From Paramagnetospirillum kuznetsovii (lineage in GTDB: Bacteria > Pseudomonadota > Alphaproteobacteria > Rhodospirillales > Magnetospirillaceae): a DNA stretch of 64,000 nt. Below, one piece after another: positions 47,338 to 54,407 of the stretch. The stretch is taken from positions 186,001 to 250,000 of the forward strand of contig NZ_PGTO01000001.1 in assembly GCF_003284725.1 (NCBI RefSeq), in the 5' to 3' direction. How positions within the stretch are numbered: position 1 is the first letter of the stretch; each line of letters starts with the position of its first letter. The translations under genes were made by a program, and so were the position numbers. Under the pieces are notes generated by a model. It did no database searches. It saw nothing but the letters and a program-made list of their open reading frames with translations, and had not been told where the DNA came from.

Positions 47338-49533
47338 GTGCGACATGATTTCTCCATCACGTATTGGTGCGGGGTATTGGCCTGTCTGGCAATGACGGTG
47401 GCCGTTGGCGCTTGCCCGGATGCCGTCGCGGCCGACACGCTGACCATCGCGGTGGCGGCGCCCATGAGCGGCGGCGGCAAGCATATCGGTCCCGAGATCG
47501 CCAATGCGGTCCAGCTGCTGGCCGACGAGACCAATGCCGTCGGCGGCATCGGCGGGCGCTTGCTGACGGTGCGCCTGTTCGACGACGCCACCAGCGCGGA
47601 CGTCGCGAAGACGATCGCCGCCGAGATCAGCGCCGGTCCCGCCCTGGCGGTGATCGGCCATGCCCACAGCCCGGTCGCCCTGGCCGCCGCGCCTATCTAT
47701 CGCGATGGCGGCCTCGCCACCTTGTCCAGCGCCGCCGAGGGGGCCTTGACCAAGGATTTCGCCACCTTCTTCCGCATCATTCCGGCGCTTGACGCGCAAG
47801 GACGCGCCGCCGCCATCTATGCCCTGGAAGAATTGGGCCAGACCCGGACCACCATCGTCTATCGCGACGACAATTTCGGGCGCTCGCTGCTGCACGCCTA
47901 TTCTGACCAGTTCACCAAGGGCGGCCGCGGCCGTGTTCGCGCCATGCCCTTGCCCAAGGGTCCGGTGGACTGGGCGGCGGTGGTCACGGATCTGGCGGCC
48001 GATCCGGGGCTGATCGTCATCGCCATGCAGGACTTCGACGCCAAGCATTTCCTGGCGGAAAAGCGGCGGCGCGGCAACGAAGCCCCGGTGCTGGGCTCGC
48101 AGGCCTTCGCCCGCGACGTCTTCATCACCCTGTTCAAGGACGAGCCGGAGGAAGCGGCGCGGCCGGGATACTTCGCCGAGGGCCTTTACGCCATGGCGCC
48201 GACCATCCTGGACACCGCCAACAAGGACACCTTGGATTTCGCCTTGGCCTACCGGGCGCGGTTCGGCGCCTCGCCCGGCTGGATCGGGGTCAAGTATTAC
48301 GAGGCGGCCCGCGCCGTGGTCCAGGCCTTGGGGCGTGCCGCGATCGGCAATACCGCCCAGAGCCGGGACAAGGACCGCGCGTCGGTACGCCAGGCGCTGG
48401 CGGCGATGGACTCGCCATCCACGGCGGTCGGCGGCCTGACCGGGCCGATCCTGTTCGATGCCGAGCGCAACCGGGTGGATTCGTTCCGGGTCGGCCGCTT
48501 TCAGGGCGGCCGTTTCCTCTCGGCCCCGGTCCAACTGGTGCCGGTGGCCGATCCCCGCTCGGTGGACCTGCCCCGTGCCATGGCGGCCGATACCGTCCGC
48601 AAGATCGGCCAGGAGCATTTCTGGCGGCAAAGAATCGTCTATACCGGCATCCAGCCGGTCTCCATCGACAAGATCGAGACCAAAGACGGGTTCTTTTCCG
48701 CCGATTTCTATATGTGGATGCGCTTCGTCGAGCGCGAGGGAATCACCGCCGTCCAGTTTCCCGACATGATCCGGGGCGGCTACAATCCGGCCCAGCCGGT
48801 GGCGAGCCGCAAGGCCGACGGCATGACCTATCTGCTGTATCGGGTGAAGGGAGATTTTCGCAACGAATTCAACCTCGCGGATTATCCCTTCGACCAGCAG
48901 CAGCTGATCATCCGGCTGGCCAATACCCATCTGACCCGGGAAGAGGTGGTCTATGCGGTGGACGCCCTGCCGTCGGGGCGGGCCGATGCCGGGTCGTGGC
49001 GCATGCCGGGGCAATGGGATGGCCGCCAGGTGGACCGGTTCCGCGACGATCTGGTGTCCAAGGGGGCGCTGGGCGATCTCGACGCCATGCAATCGGGTCG
49101 GGCGCTGGAATTTTCCGGCTTCAAGGCGGTACTGATGGCGCAGCGCCAGGTCATGGTATTCCTGCGCAAGAACCTGCTGCCCCTGGGGCTGCTGACCCTG
49201 GTGGTCTATTCGACCCTGTTCTATCCGGAAAGCATGCTGAAGGAGCGCCTGACGGTGCCGGTGGCCGCCATGCTGGCCGCCTCGGTGCTGCTGTCGGGCG
49301 TCCAGGCCCGCCTGGGCGACATCGGCTATACCACGGCGGCCGAAGTGATCTTCTACATCTTCTTTTTCGCCGGCCTGATGGCCATGCTGTCGGCCCTGGT
49401 GGAGGAACGGTTGCGGCTGAGCAACTGGCCCCGCCTGATGATCATCGTGCGGCGGGGATCGCATATCCTGTTTCCGCTGACCGTGCTCGCCACCTGGATG
49501 GCGCTGTTCGTGCAGTATCGCGACCGCTTCTGA
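47338..49533 (+). CDS. Periplasmic-binding-protein / pentameric ligand-gated ion channel fusion
   Basis: A 731-residue protein. A signal peptide (1-32) is followed by a type-1 periplasmic binding protein domain of the branched-chain amino acid receptor kind (about 33-400: LTIAVAAPMSGGGKHIGPEI, TTIVYRDDNFGRSLL). Then a beta-rich region (about 420-605) contains DYPFDQQQLIIRL, the Pro-loop motif of Cys-loop-type channels without cysteines (Pro517, Phe518, Asp519). Four helices follow: about 612-632, 640-662, 670-697 and 708-727. GTG at 47338 starts the signal peptide. A ligand is not known. Confidence 0.85.
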   Translation: MRHDFSITYWCGVLACLAMTVAVGACPDAVAADTLTIAVAAPMSGGGKHIGPEIANAVQLLADETNAVGGIGGRLLTVRLFDDATSADVAKTIAAEISAGPALAVIGHAHSPVALAAAPIYRDGGLATLSSAAEGALTKDFATFFRIIPALDAQGRAAAIYALEELGQTRTTIVYRDDNFGRSLLHAYSDQFTKGGRGRVRAMPLPKGPVDWAAVVTDLAADPGLIVIAMQDFDAKHFLAEKRRRGNEAPVLGSQAFARDVFITLFKDEPEEAARPGYFAEGLYAMAPTILDTANKDTLDFALAYRARFGASPGWIGVKYYEAARAVVQALGRAAIGNTAQSRDKDRASVRQALAAMDSPSTAVGGLTGPILFDAERNRVDSFRVGRFQGGRFLSAPVQLVPVADPRSVDLPRAMAADTVRKIGQEHFWRQRIVYTGIQPVSIDKIETKDGFFSADFYMWMRFVEREGITAVQFPDMIRGGYNPAQPVASRKADGMTYLLYRVKGDFRNEFNLADYPFDQQQLIIRLANTHLTREEVVYAVDALPSGRADAGSWRMPGQWDGRQVDRFRDDLVSKGALGDLDAMQSGRALEFSGFKAVLMAQRQVMVFLRKNLLPLGLLTLVVYSTLFYPESMLKERLTVPVAAMLAASVLLSGVQARLGDIGYTTAAEVIFYIFFFAGLMAMLSALVEERLRLSNWPRLMIIVRRGSHILFPLTVLATWMALFVQYRDRF

Positions 49534-49551
49534 GCCGTCGCCCGTCCGGTG

Positions 49552-51870
49552 TCAGCGCGCGACGGCGCTGTCCTGATCGGCCATCCAACCGGTCACTTCG
49601 GCGCCCGGCATGGGCCGGGCGATGCCGTAGCCCTGGGCGACGTCGCAACCGGCGCGTTTCAGCCAGCCCAGCTCGGCGTCGGTTTCCGCACCCTCGGCCA
49701 CCACCTTGAGCCCCAGCGCATGGCCGAGCGCGATGGTGGAGCGCACGATCTCGGCATCCTTGCCCGATTCCATCAGGGAGAAGATGAAGGCCTGATCGAT
49801 CTTCAACTCGTGGACCGGCAGGGATTTGAGATAGGCCAGCGAGGCATGACCGGCGCCGTAATCGTCGATGGAGAGACGAACTCCAGACTCAGCCAACTGA
49901 TTGAGGGTTGCCAGCGCCAGATCGGGGTCGTCCATCAGGGCGCTTTCGGTGATTTCCAGGCAAAGCTGCCCAGGGGGCAGGCCACTGGAAGCGAGCAGGC
50001 GCTTCACCAGCGGCGCCAGGCCGGAATGCAGCAGATCCAGGGTGGACAGATTGGCCGACACCACGAGGTTCAGGCCCTGGGCCCGCCAAGCCGCCGTGCG
50101 CGCCACCACTTGGTCCAGCAGCCAGGGGGTGATCTCGCGGATGAAGCCGGTCTGTTCGGCGAAGGGTATGAACTGCGCCGGGGGGATCAGGCCGCGGCTT
50201 GGGTGGCGCCAGCGCAGCAGCGCCTCGGCGCCGGTCACCCGCCCGCTCGCCAGATCCAGTTTGGGCTGATAGAACACCTCGAATTCCTGGCGGAGCAAGG
50301 CATCGCGCATCTCGCCGATTAGCGACAGTTGCTCATGAGGCGGCCCGGCGCCGATCTCCGACGCCAGGGCATAGCCGCGAAACTGCCGCTTGGCCTCGCG
50401 CACCGCCAGTTCGGTGCGCTGGAGCAAGGTATTGGAATCGGCGGCGTCTTGCGGCCAGAAACCGATGCCCAGGCTGCCGCCCACGTCGATTCGCTGGCCG
50501 TCCAGCAAGATGGGCTCCTGCAAGGCCGCGTGAATGGTCACCGACAGAGCGATGGCCGCCTCGGTATCGGTGCCGTCACGGACCACGGCGAATTCATCAC
50601 CCCAAAGACGGCAGACCCCGATGCCTGGGGCGACGGTGGCGACCAGCCGGTCGCCCACCAGCCGCAGCAGGCGGTCGCCCACCGCATGGCCCAGGGCGTC
50701 GTTGATCAGCCCGAAGCGATCGAGATCGAGGATGAGCACGGCGCAGGGCGGCGTTGGGCCGGTTCGTCCCAGCCGATCCAGCAGCCATGTGCGGTTGGGT
50801 AGGCCGGTCAGACCGTCCTCATAGGCCAGCCGCAGGATCTTTTGCTCCCTGGCGGCGATGCCTTGGCGCATGCGGTCGAAGCTGGCCGCCAGTTGACCGA
50901 TCTCGTCGGCCCCGGAATCCGGGACCGGCTCGTGATAATCGCCCGCCTCGATGCGCCGAGCCGCTTCGGCCAGGGTATTGACCGGCCGGGCGATGTGGCG
51001 GGCCAGCCGCAGGCTGCCCAGGATGAACAGCACTGCGCCGCCCAGGGCGATCACCGCCAGCGAGCGGTGAAGATCGCGAAACACCGCCTCGGCCTGATCG
51101 AGCGACAACAGCAGCACCGCCGTCGCCCTCTCGCTCATGGGCCGCGCCATGACGTGATGGCGCTGACCGTTCAGGGACATCAGGATCGGGATATCTGGCG
51201 GCGGCAGGGCCGAACGCTCGCCCAGGGCATCGCGCAATTCGGCGCTCAACGAACCGGCCGGCACCACGGTGCGGCCGTCGGATTCGGCCAGGACGGCGAT
51301 GCCCAAGCCGCTCATGGCGGAAAAGCTGCGGGCCCAGGAATCATCCACGTTGAAGCCCATGGCGACCCAGGCGATCTGGCCCGGCGCCATGATGGGCACG
51401 ATGGCGATCTGATAAAGGCGGCCGTCCATCTCGTCGAATCCGGCGCTTTGGCCGGTCGCCTGGGCGGCGCGCAACAAGCCGTCGAACGGCGCGGGTCGCG
51501 GTTTGCCGCCGGGGGCCAGGGTGTCGGCCATCACCATGCCGTCCAGCGACACCACCATCATGAAACCGGCGCCGATGCGCGATCCGTGATTGCGCAGCAC
51601 CGACAGAACGGTGGCGCGATCCTGGGTGGCGATGGCTTCGCGGAAGCTGAAATCCCGCGCCAGCACCGAGGCGGCGGTTTCCATCTGGCTCTGGCTATAG
51701 GCAACCAGATAGTCGAAGGTTCGCACCCCGGCGCCCAGGCGGCGCTCGGATTCCCCGGAAACGACGCGGTCGTTGCTTTCGATCACCAGCAGCAGGGTCA
51801 GACTGGTCACCAAGGCCAGCAGTCCGACGAAGACCGCCACGATGCGCCGCTCGATGGATCGGAACACCAT
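49552..51870 (-). CDS. Membrane GGDEF-EAL protein with periplasmic sensor and HAMP domain
   Basis: A 772-residue protein. Two transmembrane helices (about 10-30 and 270-290) bracket a periplasmic sensor of the double-Cache-like type; a HAMP domain follows (RHIARPVNTLAEAARRIEAGD). The GGDEF domain has LDLDRFGLINDALGHAVGD but its signature is WGDEF, with no RxxD inhibitory site seen. The EAL domain keeps EALLRW, ITESALM, DDYGAGHASL and AEGAET, so c-di-GMP phosphodiesterase activity is likely. The ATG at 51870 shares one base with the upstream stop. Confidence 0.9.
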   Translation of the reverse strand: MVFRSIERRIVAVFVGLLALVTSLTLLLVIESNDRVVSGESERRLGAGVRTFDYLVAYSQSQMETAASVLARDFSFREAIATQDRATVLSVLRNHGSRIGAGFMMVVSLDGMVMADTLAPGGKPRPAPFDGLLRAAQATGQSAGFDEMDGRLYQIAIVPIMAPGQIAWVAMGFNVDDSWARSFSAMSGLGIAVLAESDGRTVVPAGSLSAELRDALGERSALPPPDIPILMSLNGQRHHVMARPMSERATAVLLLSLDQAEAVFRDLHRSLAVIALGGAVLFILGSLRLARHIARPVNTLAEAARRIEAGDYHEPVPDSGADEIGQLAASFDRMRQGIAAREQKILRLAYEDGLTGLPNRTWLLDRLGRTGPTPPCAVLILDLDRFGLINDALGHAVGDRLLRLVGDRLVATVAPGIGVCRLWGDEFAVVRDGTDTEAAIALSVTIHAALQEPILLDGQRIDVGGSLGIGFWPQDAADSNTLLQRTELAVREAKRQFRGYALASEIGAGPPHEQLSLIGEMRDALLRQEFEVFYQPKLDLASGRVTGAEALLRWRHPSRGLIPPAQFIPFAEQTGFIREITPWLLDQVVARTAAWRAQGLNLVVSANLSTLDLLHSGLAPLVKRLLASSGLPPGQLCLEITESALMDDPDLALATLNQLAESGVRLSIDDYGAGHASLAYLKSLPVHELKIDQAFIFSLMESGKDAEIVRSTIALGHALGLKVVAEGAETDAELGWLKRAGCDVAQGYGIARPMPGAEVTGWMADQDSAVAR

Positions 51871-52511
51871 CAGTAATCGTCCTTGTCGGCCGGTGGCTTG
51901 CGCCGGGCCGTCCGTGGCGAAACCTCCATGGTCGCGTCGATTCGAATGGAGTCGGCCCCGTCCAGGACAAGCGGCCGCTCCGCGACGGCTTGCCGTTGCA
52001 GCGGATGCCACAGCCGCAACCGATGGCGCCCGGCCGGAAGATCGGCGATTTTCGCGCAGCCGTCGGGGCCGGTCTTGGCGAAATAGGGGGACTCGACCAC
52101 CAGCACATAGGCTTCCATCCAATCATGGATGTTGCAGCCGATGGCGATGTCGCCGGTCTTGTCGAACAGCACCGGGGCGGCGGGCTTGCCCGCGTAAAGC
52201 TTGATCTCGAAGGGTTTGGCGGCGGAAAACGAATAGACGTGGTGCTTCAAGGGGTCGCGATTGGGAAATTCGATCTCGGTTCCCTGGCGCACGATGGTCA
52301 GAAACGGCACGAAGTCACGGTCGATCTGTTCGATGGCGGCCAGCGGCCTGGGCATGCGGGGATCCACGGTGGCGCCCTCGACCACCACCGCCGCGTCCGG
52401 GATCGGGCGCCCGGTGGGGCCGGTCACGCATGCGCTCAGCTCGGCGGCCGACGCTTCGGTGGCGCATGCCGCCAGGGCAAGGACGAAAAGTACCGTCCGG
52501 CGATGGATCAT
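51870..52511 (-). CDS. Periplasmic cupredoxin-like protein (methylamine-utilization-protein type)
   Basis: A 213-residue exported protein with a signal peptide ending near SASA-AE. The middle resembles a plastocyanin fold: EIEFPNRDPLKHHVYSFSAA with a candidate His ligand, and GCNIHDWMEAYVLVV, supplying Cys, His and Met in the CxxHxxM spacing of type-1 copper sites. A carboxypeptidase-regulatory-like strand set (GPTGRPIPDAAVVVEG, LPAGRHRLRLWHP) flanks it. It overlaps the upstream SnoaL-like gene (ATGA) and abuts the GGDEF-EAL gene. Copper binding is inferred. Confidence 0.75.
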   Translation of the reverse strand: MIHRRTVLFVLALAACATEASAAELSACVTGPTGRPIPDAAVVVEGATVDPRMPRPLAAIEQIDRDFVPFLTIVRQGTEIEFPNRDPLKHHVYSFSAAKPFEIKLYAGKPAAPVLFDKTGDIAIGCNIHDWMEAYVLVVESPYFAKTGPDGCAKIADLPAGRHRLRLWHPLQRQAVAERPLVLDGADSIRIDATMEVSPRTARRKPPADKDDY

Positions 52512-52951
52512 GGACCCGCTTTTATGGTTGGGTCGATCTGCCAGATTTCGGTGGCCAATTCGCCATCGCGATAGACCATCACATGCCAGACCTTCACCGG
52601 CGCCTTGCCGCCATATTCCGCCGAGGCCTCGATGGAGGCGCCCTTGGGATTGGCATAGGCATGCGGCTTGCTGAATTTGGCGGGACGCGGCTGGCCGTCG
52701 TTGTTGGCGATGAACTTGGTCCACACCGCCTGGATCTGCTCCTTGCCCCGATAGCGGCCGTCTAGACCGCCGCCCACCCAATCCATATAGGCGTCGGCGC
52801 TGTAATCACGCATCAAGACATCCAGGTTACCCGCGGCGACGGCGTCCAGATGCTCGACTGCCTTGCGCTCGTCCAGTGGTCCGGCGTCGGCCGGAACAGC
52901 GACGAGCAGAGCCAGGATCGCCAAGGCCGGGATCGTGACGGATCGTCTCAT
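52508..52951 (-). CDS. Exported SnoaL/DUF4440-like (NTF2-fold) protein
   Basis: A 147-residue protein with signal peptide (cleaved near ADA-GP) and an NTF2-like domain (about 28-145: AVEHLDAVAAGNLDVLMRDY, YRGKEQIQAVWTKFIAN, WHVMVYRDGELATEIWQID). This fold is common in small ligand-binding or isomerase-like proteins; no catalytic residues can be assigned. An AGGAGGAGAG Shine-Dalgarno precedes the ATG. It is the first gene of the SnoaL-cupredoxin-GGDEF-EAL operon. Confidence 0.78.
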   Translation of the reverse strand: MRRSVTIPALAILALLVAVPADAGPLDERKAVEHLDAVAAGNLDVLMRDYSADAYMDWVGGGLDGRYRGKEQIQAVWTKFIANNDGQPRPAKFSKPHAYANPKGASIEASAEYGGKAPVKVWHVMVYRDGELATEIWQIDPTIKAGP

Positions 52952-53132
52952 GACACTCTCCTCCTTCGCCAAAAGCTGACAGTTCCGGGGAAAATCCAAC
53001 GGAAGGCAGCAGGGAGTTTCAACCTTGGTTCATCCAACCGTCAAGGGTGCTGCACATTAGATGATACCAGGGCGCGAGGTTTCAACACAGGTTCCTTGAT
53101 CATCCCGATGATTGGCGGGATGACATGGCATT

Positions 53133-54407
53133 CTATGGCTTGGCGGGCGGGCAATGGGCGGCGAAGGAGGCTTCGCTGTCGGCCAGCGAGCGGACATAGC
53201 AGTCGTCGACCTTGGCGTTGCCGAGGGCGAGGGCGTCCAGATAGGCCCACAGGATGGCCTTGGCCTCCTGGCGGCTTAGGCCCGCCTTGGCGAGGGACGG
53301 ATCGGGCATGGAGCCCGCCTTGGCGATCTTGTCCCAGCCCGGCGGCGAGGTCACCGAGACCATGGCGGTGGGGCTGTCCAGATTCTTGTAGGACCAGAAG
53401 CTCCAGCCGAAGCCGAATCGCTCGTTCAGGGCGCGGAAGGCCCGGTTCCACTGGTTGTTGAACTCGCCCGCCTCGCCCAGCAGGATCGGCACCCGGTGCA
53501 GCAGCGAGAAGTTGATGTAATCCTGGATGGCGTCGCGCTCGGTGGTCGACCAGAATTCGTGGAAGACATAGACCAGATCACGGGTGAAGGGCGGGCCGAA
53601 CACCCCCATGTTCTGGCCCCATTGGGGCGAGGCCAGGAAGATCAGGTGGTTGGGATCGACCGCGCGGACCGCCTCGGTCAGCTCGCGGTAATAGGTTTCC
53701 AGGTGGGGATTGAGGACGTCCTCGTCATTATAGGTGGAAATGGGCTCGTTGAGCAGTTCGTAGCCCAGCACCGTGGGGTCGTCGCGGTAGCGCCGGGCGA
53801 TCTCGCGCCATAGCTCTTCGGTGCGGCGGCGTTCGCGCGGGACGTAGAACACCAGCGGAAAGCCGGTGCTGTCGTCGTGATTGATGCCGGTCTGGCCGCC
53901 CGGCGCGGCATGCAGGTCGATGAGCACCTTCAGGCCGTCCTCGCGGCACCAGCCGATCAGGCGGTCCAGCAGGGCCCAGCCCGGACCTTCGAAGCTGGTC
54001 GGCCGCAGGCTGTCGGCGCCCAGGGGGTCGTTCTGGCCGAGGAACAACCCGTAATGCAGCGGCACCCGCACGGTGTTGAGGCCGGATTGCTTGATCAGGC
54101 GGATGTCGTTGCGACCCACATAGCGGTCGCGGAACAGTTCCCAGAACCGCTCGGCATCGTCGTGTCCGACCAGGGTCTCCACCAGGGCCGAGATCTGGCG
54201 CGGCGCCTTGGCCTTCTTGAACTTGAACATATAGCCTTCGGTCATCAGCCAGTTGCCCAGGCCGATACCCCTGATGGCGAACTCATTGCCGGACTCGTCT
54301 GCCAGGACGCGGCCTTGGGCATGGATGAATCCCTGCTGGGCCGCCGCCGGGGCCGCCCACAGGCACAGAGCGGCCATGACGCCGATGACGGAGTATCCTA
54401 TTCCCAT
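53133..54407 (-). CDS. Secreted glycoside hydrolase family 5 protein
   Basis: A 424-residue TIM-barrel hydrolase with a signal peptide (ending APAAA-QQ). GLNTVRVPLHYGLF, VLIDLHAAPGGQTG and YELLNEPIS (acid/base Glu) are GH5 features, and LLGEAGEFNN supplies the nucleophile glutamate. The pattern suits exo-beta-1,3-glucanase-like or cellulase subfamilies; the substrate is undefined. ATG at 54407 is chosen; 54455 would lengthen the signal peptide by 16 residues. It is divergent from the GntP gene. Confidence 0.85.
   Translation of the reverse strand: MGIGYSVIGVMAALCLWAAPAAAQQGFIHAQGRVLADESGNEFAIRGIGLGNWLMTEGYMFKFKKAKAPRQISALVETLVGHDDAERFWELFRDRYVGRNDIRLIKQSGLNTVRVPLHYGLFLGQNDPLGADSLRPTSFEGPGWALLDRLIGWCREDGLKVLIDLHAAPGGQTGINHDDSTGFPLVFYVPRERRRTEELWREIARRYRDDPTVLGYELLNEPISTYNDEDVLNPHLETYYRELTEAVRAVDPNHLIFLASPQWGQNMGVFGPPFTRDLVYVFHEFWSTTERDAIQDYINFSLLHRVPILLGEAGEFNNQWNRAFRALNERFGFGWSFWSYKNLDSPTAMVSVTSPPGWDKIAKAGSMPDPSLAKAGLSRQEAKAILWAYLDALALGNAKVDDCYVRSLADSEASFAAHCPPAKP

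Follow-up and report, generated by a model that had tools for sequence, protein, structure and literature searches.

In several bacterial systems, among them NspS-MbaA, YfiR-YfiN and LuxP-LuxQ, signalling in the cytoplasm is set by a periplasmic protein through its docking to a membrane receptor. A 64,000-nucleotide stretch of the Paramagnetospirillum kuznetsovii genome (hereafter "the window", to whose positions all gene coordinates refer) encodes a predicted cupredoxin directly followed by a membrane receptor of the dCache_3-HAMP-GGDEF-EAL type, and this pair resembles the above systems in combining a periplasmic partner with a receptor, a likeness at the level of gene linkage. The partners in the described systems are a binding protein or YfiR and not a copper protein, whereas here the partner is a putative copper protein and the output of the receptor has been exchanged between enzyme classes. 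Metal inputs have been described for two receptors of Pseudomonas aeruginosa: copper is an input to signalling by cyclic dimeric guanosine monophosphate (c-di-GMP) via the Cu(II)-binding CHASE4 domain of PA14_37690 (PMC13277305), and IsmP (PA2072) binds iron (PMC10904736). The receptor from the window shares with both the periplasmic Cache-like domain on a GGDEF-EAL protein; there, the receptor domain itself binds iron or copper, whereas here the metal input is proposed and the predicted site is located on a separate secreted protein. A literature search, limited to open-licence papers, revealed no description of a cupredoxin-receptor module and no experiment on the pair.

The genes of the cupredoxin (213 residues, 51870..52511) and the receptor (772 residues, 49552..51870) are located on the minus strand and overlap by one base. 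To delineate their linkage we used the best 80 of at least 596 relatives identified in a peptide scan. A receptor with the same dCache-HAMP half is present in the locus of 74 of these 80 cupredoxins, some of the 74 being contig-end fragments or broken frames (L085, L089, L119, L135): it lies directly downstream in 62 cases; in 10 it precedes the cupredoxin on the same strand, often separated from it by an unnamed outer-membrane-type gene; in two it is on the opposite strand; and it is missing from the remaining six, one of which (L141) is a short contig. Searching 398 Pseudomonadota genomes with a profile of the receptor sensor (76 rows) gave 58 matches, spread over 51 genomes, and 49 of these matches lie within 5 kb of a cupredoxin. 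As a filter for fetched loci the receptor profile was not fully specific: it also passed two methyl-accepting chemotaxis proteins (four-helix-bundle type), which were excluded from the partner count. Among the 398 genomes, with at most seven candidates scored per genome so that distant copies may be missed, 50 possess both proteins, 10 the cupredoxin alone, one the receptor alone and 337 neither (Fisher p 3e-52, uncorrected for relatedness). In five genomes both are present but apart (G590, G686, G699, G714, G913), and in the only genome with a receptor match and no cupredoxin (G473) the match is a CHASE4-type GGDEF-EAL protein. At E up to 1e-10 for the cupredoxin and up to 1e-12 for the receptor, 385 genomes sampled across the class included 17 with the former and 16 with the latter; 15 genomes share the two, both on one contig. 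By gene order the pair was found in Pseudomonadota, Nitrospirota, Rokuibacteriota, Verrucomicrobiota and others. Cupredoxin and receptor together make up the conserved unit.

The same loci bear on a rather unlikely alternative, according to which the cupredoxin carries electrons or handles copper in the envelope, the receptor senses a small ligand of its own, and the two share a condition and not a contact. Cupredoxins are mostly electron carriers, as is well established, and other neighbours of the pair vary from clade to clade, including DUF3034 proteins (22 of the 80 loci), truncated globins (13), porin-like proteins (5) and outer-membrane-type proteins (21), the latter two having no Pfam match and being named by eye. 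However, the receptor is retained in 74 of 80 loci while every other neighbour changes, and a cupredoxin is encoded in 50 of the 51 genomes with a receptor, in five of them at a separate place.

The cupredoxin possesses an apparent signal peptide, as judged by eye. Its sequence matches no cupredoxin family in Pfam or NCBIfam and nothing in the PDB at E up to 1, while residues 135-195 match CarboxypepD_reg below the Pfam cut-off. In the AlphaFold model (predicted local distance difference test score, pLDDT, 87.5; calculated from a 15-row alignment) residues 54-140 superpose on plastocyanin, amicyanin and other cupredoxins with Z 11-12.7, the best matches being plastocyanin (1bxu, Z 12.7, root-mean-square deviation 1.8 over 83 residues) and amicyanin (1sf3, Z 11.8). 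A second part of the model (81 residues aligned in the range 23-198) resembles the accessory domain of carboxypeptidase D (3mn8, Z 11.2). Because residues 54-140 adopt the predicted Greek-key cupredoxin fold while the range 23-198 matches 3mn8, the cupredoxin appears to be inserted within a carboxypeptidase-type domain.

The predicted copper ligands are H90 (codon at 52242..52244, minus strand) and C126, H129 and M132 of the motif CNIHDWM (52116..52136, minus strand), which forms an amicyanin-like ligand loop. All four are invariant in the 15 cupredoxins aligned after a whole-protein search. As the query of the large scan was the peptide GCNIHDxM, the C, H and M of the loop are fixed by construction in the 80-locus set; H90 was free to vary and is H in 80 of 80. 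In a set collected independently of this pattern, comprising 56 cupredoxin open reading frames from 62 fetched loci (a profile search of the 398 genomes, with 55 of 68 matches fetched, and one addition from the class-wide sample), the four ligands are unchanged in 56 of 56, and distant cupredoxins with FCAVHPNM, YCNVHHSM or ECDAHDFM in place of the loop also keep them all. The protein thus has, as judged from its sequence, the complete and invariant predicted H/C/H/M set that a type-1 copper site requires, and would be expected to be loaded with copper; together with the predicted fold, this bears out the suggestion of the preliminary description that CNIHDWM is a potential type-1 copper site. 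Amicyanin, plastocyanin and pseudoazurin share with it the fold (predicted here, Z 11-13) and the full ligand set, but the protein from the window differs from them in having no sequence match in the PDB, in being nested in a carboxypeptidase-regulatory-like domain and in having a receptor as a neighbour. The usual database name of such cupredoxins suggests an amicyanin-type role, and amicyanin, whose C-x2-H-x2-M spacing is identical, is also one of the structural matches. Nevertheless, we find it very hard to credit that the protein is an amicyanin-type electron acceptor of methylamine oxidation: the operon lies among genes for a channel-like fusion, a kinase and a GH5 enzyme (as assigned by Pfam), and the partner kept in relatives is the receptor. 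The genome also gave no match to the heavy chain of methylamine dehydrogenase (PF06433), which is a weak argument, since control genomes gave none either.

The periplasmic sensor domain announced for the receptor in the preliminary description proved to be a dCache_3 domain (PF14827, E 4.2e-10; residues 29-264, 51079..51786, minus strand), which is followed by a HAMP domain assigned by Pfam (residues 288-338, 50857..51009, minus strand). Comparison of the sensor sequence with the PDB gave matches almost wholly within the HAMP and second transmembrane part. The AlphaFold model of the sensor (pLDDT 96.4) matches the folds of CitA (2j80, Z 17.6), DctB (3e4o, Z 15.7) and LuxQ (3c38, Z 14.8); the similarity to CitA and DctB, which are small-ligand sensors, agrees with a receptor that would sense a ligand of its own next to an electron carrier. 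The model is also close to the CHASE4 domain of PA2072 (8z6n, Z 14.6). Unlike the CHASE4 domains of IsmP and PA14_37690, however, the sensor from the window is called dCache_3 by Pfam; CHASE4 was considered as its type and rejected, as it gave no match at E up to 0.01.

The sensor alignment started from 94 receptor rows, of which four (two fragments and two of other types) were removed; a filter at 70% identity then reduced the other 90 to 75. The nearly invariant residues in this alignment are L, D, T, S, N, R and P; it contains no conserved cluster of His, Cys or Met, and no conserved metal site is visible. These features bear on another possibility, which we regard as improbable, namely that the cupredoxin-like protein is a copper chaperone supplying the dCache domain, itself the metal sensor. 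Such a role would agree with the closeness of the fold to the PA2072 CHASE4 domain and with the direct binding of Cu(II) by the CHASE4 domain of the GGDEF-EAL protein PA14_37690 (PMC13277305). Yet the near-invariant residues of the sensor do not include a His/Cys/Met cluster, so the reading of the metal would be left to the cupredoxin partner.

The cytoplasmic half of the receptor comprises, according to Pfam, a degenerate GGDEF domain (residues 349-497, 50380..50826, minus strand), in which the sequence LWGDEF has WGDEF (50590..50604, minus strand) in place of GGDEF, and an EAL phosphodiesterase domain (residues 520-753, 49612..50313, minus strand). E549, R553, N607, E639, E642, D669, D670, K690, E726, E729 and Q746 of the latter are unchanged in 67 of 67 relatives and L551 is kept in 66 of 67; we take the E, N, E, D, D, K, E and Q residues in this list to be the catalytic ones. 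The GG[DE]EF signature is canonical in 31 of the 67 relatives overall and in none of the eight in the nearest clade of the window receptor, which have WGDEF, WGDQF, WGDHF, WADQF or GEDEF. Both earlier statements about this half, that the cyclase part with its WGDEF signature may be inactive and that the EAL residues are intact, agree with these counts. Since the EAL residues are intact and the GGDEF motif is degenerate in the receptor's own clade, phosphodiesterase is the likelier activity. The degenerate GGDEF half perhaps has a regulatory role by analogy with CC3396, for which a degenerate, regulatory GGDEF domain (GEDEF) beside an intact EAL domain has been reported (PMC4823724). The receptor from the window shares this combination and differs from CC3396 in the WGDEF motif and the periplasmic dCache input, and activation by guanosine triphosphate (GTP) could be proposed for it by analogy. 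The same source, a study of Xanthomonas GGDEF-EAL proteins, names two HAMP-bearing proteins, either of which may correspond to this receptor (PMC4823724).

Among the 94 receptor-like rows in the fetched loci, 67 have GGDEF plus EAL; the other outputs include class III cyclases (L032 and L153, checked with Pfam) and histidine kinases (L134, L094), with hybrid histidine kinases in more distant pairs (L224, L237). In one locus (L225:1532-4225, minus strand) a dCache-HAMP receptor that adjoins a cupredoxin ends in a Ser/Thr protein kinase. On the cupredoxin tree, from which 10 of 95 cupredoxins without an aligned sensor were excluded, the 85 pairs comprise 66 of the phosphodiesterase type, 15 cyclases and four histidine kinases, and the output has changed at least nine times, with fewer changes forced by starred branches. 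A sensor half that stays with the cupredoxin while the output switches is what an input module would be expected to look like. The link to c-di-GMP turnover proposed in the preliminary description therefore holds for the GGDEF-EAL receptor of the window and not as a specific property of the module, as the same sensor drives cyclases and kinases elsewhere.

Two distant cupredoxin families were also noted. The first, with the motif CSVHKNM (L037, L038, L039, L079, L080), occurs close to a receptor that combines the same dCache-HAMP half with a cyclase-like output; a further secreted protein separates the two in L037, L038, L079 and L080, and in L037 this protein gives weak cupredoxin and carboxypeptidase-regulatory matches. 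The second has CDAH[DN]FM (L036, L041, L081, L180) and adjoins, in L041 and L081, a formylglycine-enzyme-type protein (named by eye), with no dCache-HAMP receptor.

We consider it reasonably, though not strongly, probable that the two proteins form a two-part receptor in which the cupredoxin serves as input subunit on the periplasmic side and its copper or redox state sets the output, here the breakdown of c-di-GMP. The cupredoxin would be exported and then loaded with copper at the H/C/H/M type-1 site, and would dock on, or leave, the dCache domain of the adjacent receptor depending on copper occupancy or redox state. The dCache-HAMP unit would relay this state to the cytoplasmic output, which in the window is the EAL phosphodiesterase, with the degenerate GGDEF domain possibly only sensing GTP, so that the signal would alter c-di-GMP breakdown. 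Elsewhere among bacteria this input unit would act on class III cyclases, histidine kinases and, once, a Ser/Thr kinase. The docking, the direction of its effect and the enzyme activities are, like the control of the receptor by a copper or redox signal, envisaged on the basis of the comparisons given above.

Several points weigh against this scheme. Cupredoxins without a receptor nearby make up six of the 80 loci and 21 of the 68 profile matches, and many of them are distant forms. The receptor profile was built from cupredoxin-linked copies, some of them from the searched genomes, which favours linked finds. Cupredoxin and sensor show a distance correlation (r 0.62) that does not exceed the one for cupredoxin and EAL domain (r 0.66), and co-evolution as measured from these sequences gives no indication that the contact is made by the sensor. 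A small ligand might be recognised by the dCache domain unaided, and metal binding by the cupredoxin, its interaction with the receptor and the activity of the receptor are all predicted from sequence.

The first gene of the operon (52508..52951, minus strand) encodes an NTF2/SnoaL-like secreted protein of 147 residues (Pfam SnoaL_2, E 4.5e-06) with an apparent signal peptide, and its stop overlaps the cupredoxin start by four bases; the overlaps of four and one bases given in the preliminary description were thus found again on the minus strand. Homologs are present in nine of the 80 loci (L083, L084, L086-L091, L113), where they always immediately precede the cupredoxin, and in the cupredoxin tree eight of these loci group with the window in a single starred clade (L089 is absent from the tree). 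The NTF2 protein is, by this distribution, a clade-specific accessory and is placed as such in the proposed scheme. The trio was considered as a conserved unit and rejected, as NTF2 is present in nine of 80 loci only; what remains of the linked trio proposed earlier is the link between cupredoxin and receptor, upheld by gene order and co-occurrence. The pair also recurs together with DUF3034 and truncated globin genes as a group of four, chiefly in methylotrophs and Burkholderiales (L095, L098, L099, L105, L114, L117, L121, L135).

A scan of positions 49480-53200 for promoters and terminators found none. The channel-like fusion next to the operon (47338-49533, plus strand) is a protein of 731 residues with a periplasmic binding protein domain at the front (Peripla_BP_6, residues 34-380, E 1.6e-36) and a part related to the pentameric ligand-gated ion channels ELIC and GLIC (4yeu, E 5.3e-07). 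The cupredoxin is present in none of the 11 same-genus genomes listed, and its nearest relatives on the tree are from Sulfuricella, Andreprevotia, Thiobacillus, Noviherbaspirillum and Massilia. Judging by these sequences, horizontal acquisition from bacteria such as Sulfuricella, Thiobacillus or Massilia is likely.

The pair suggests an unrecognised means by which bacteria sense copper or the redox conditions beyond the cytoplasm. Most c-di-GMP receptors have unknown input signals, and for an entire class of receptors the pair offers a candidate, copper or the redox state of the periplasm. In a broader formulation, for which we see the case as evenly balanced, a dedicated blue-copper protein serves bacteria of several phyla as a detachable, signal-reading receptor subunit and not as an electron carrier, with a dCache-HAMP unit that is switched by the copper or redox state of this protein and has been joined separately to c-di-GMP, cyclic-nucleotide, histidine-kinase and Ser/Thr-kinase outputs. 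If this is true, cupredoxins would acquire a role in signalling, and part of a large family that carries only a misleading metabolic name would be accounted for.

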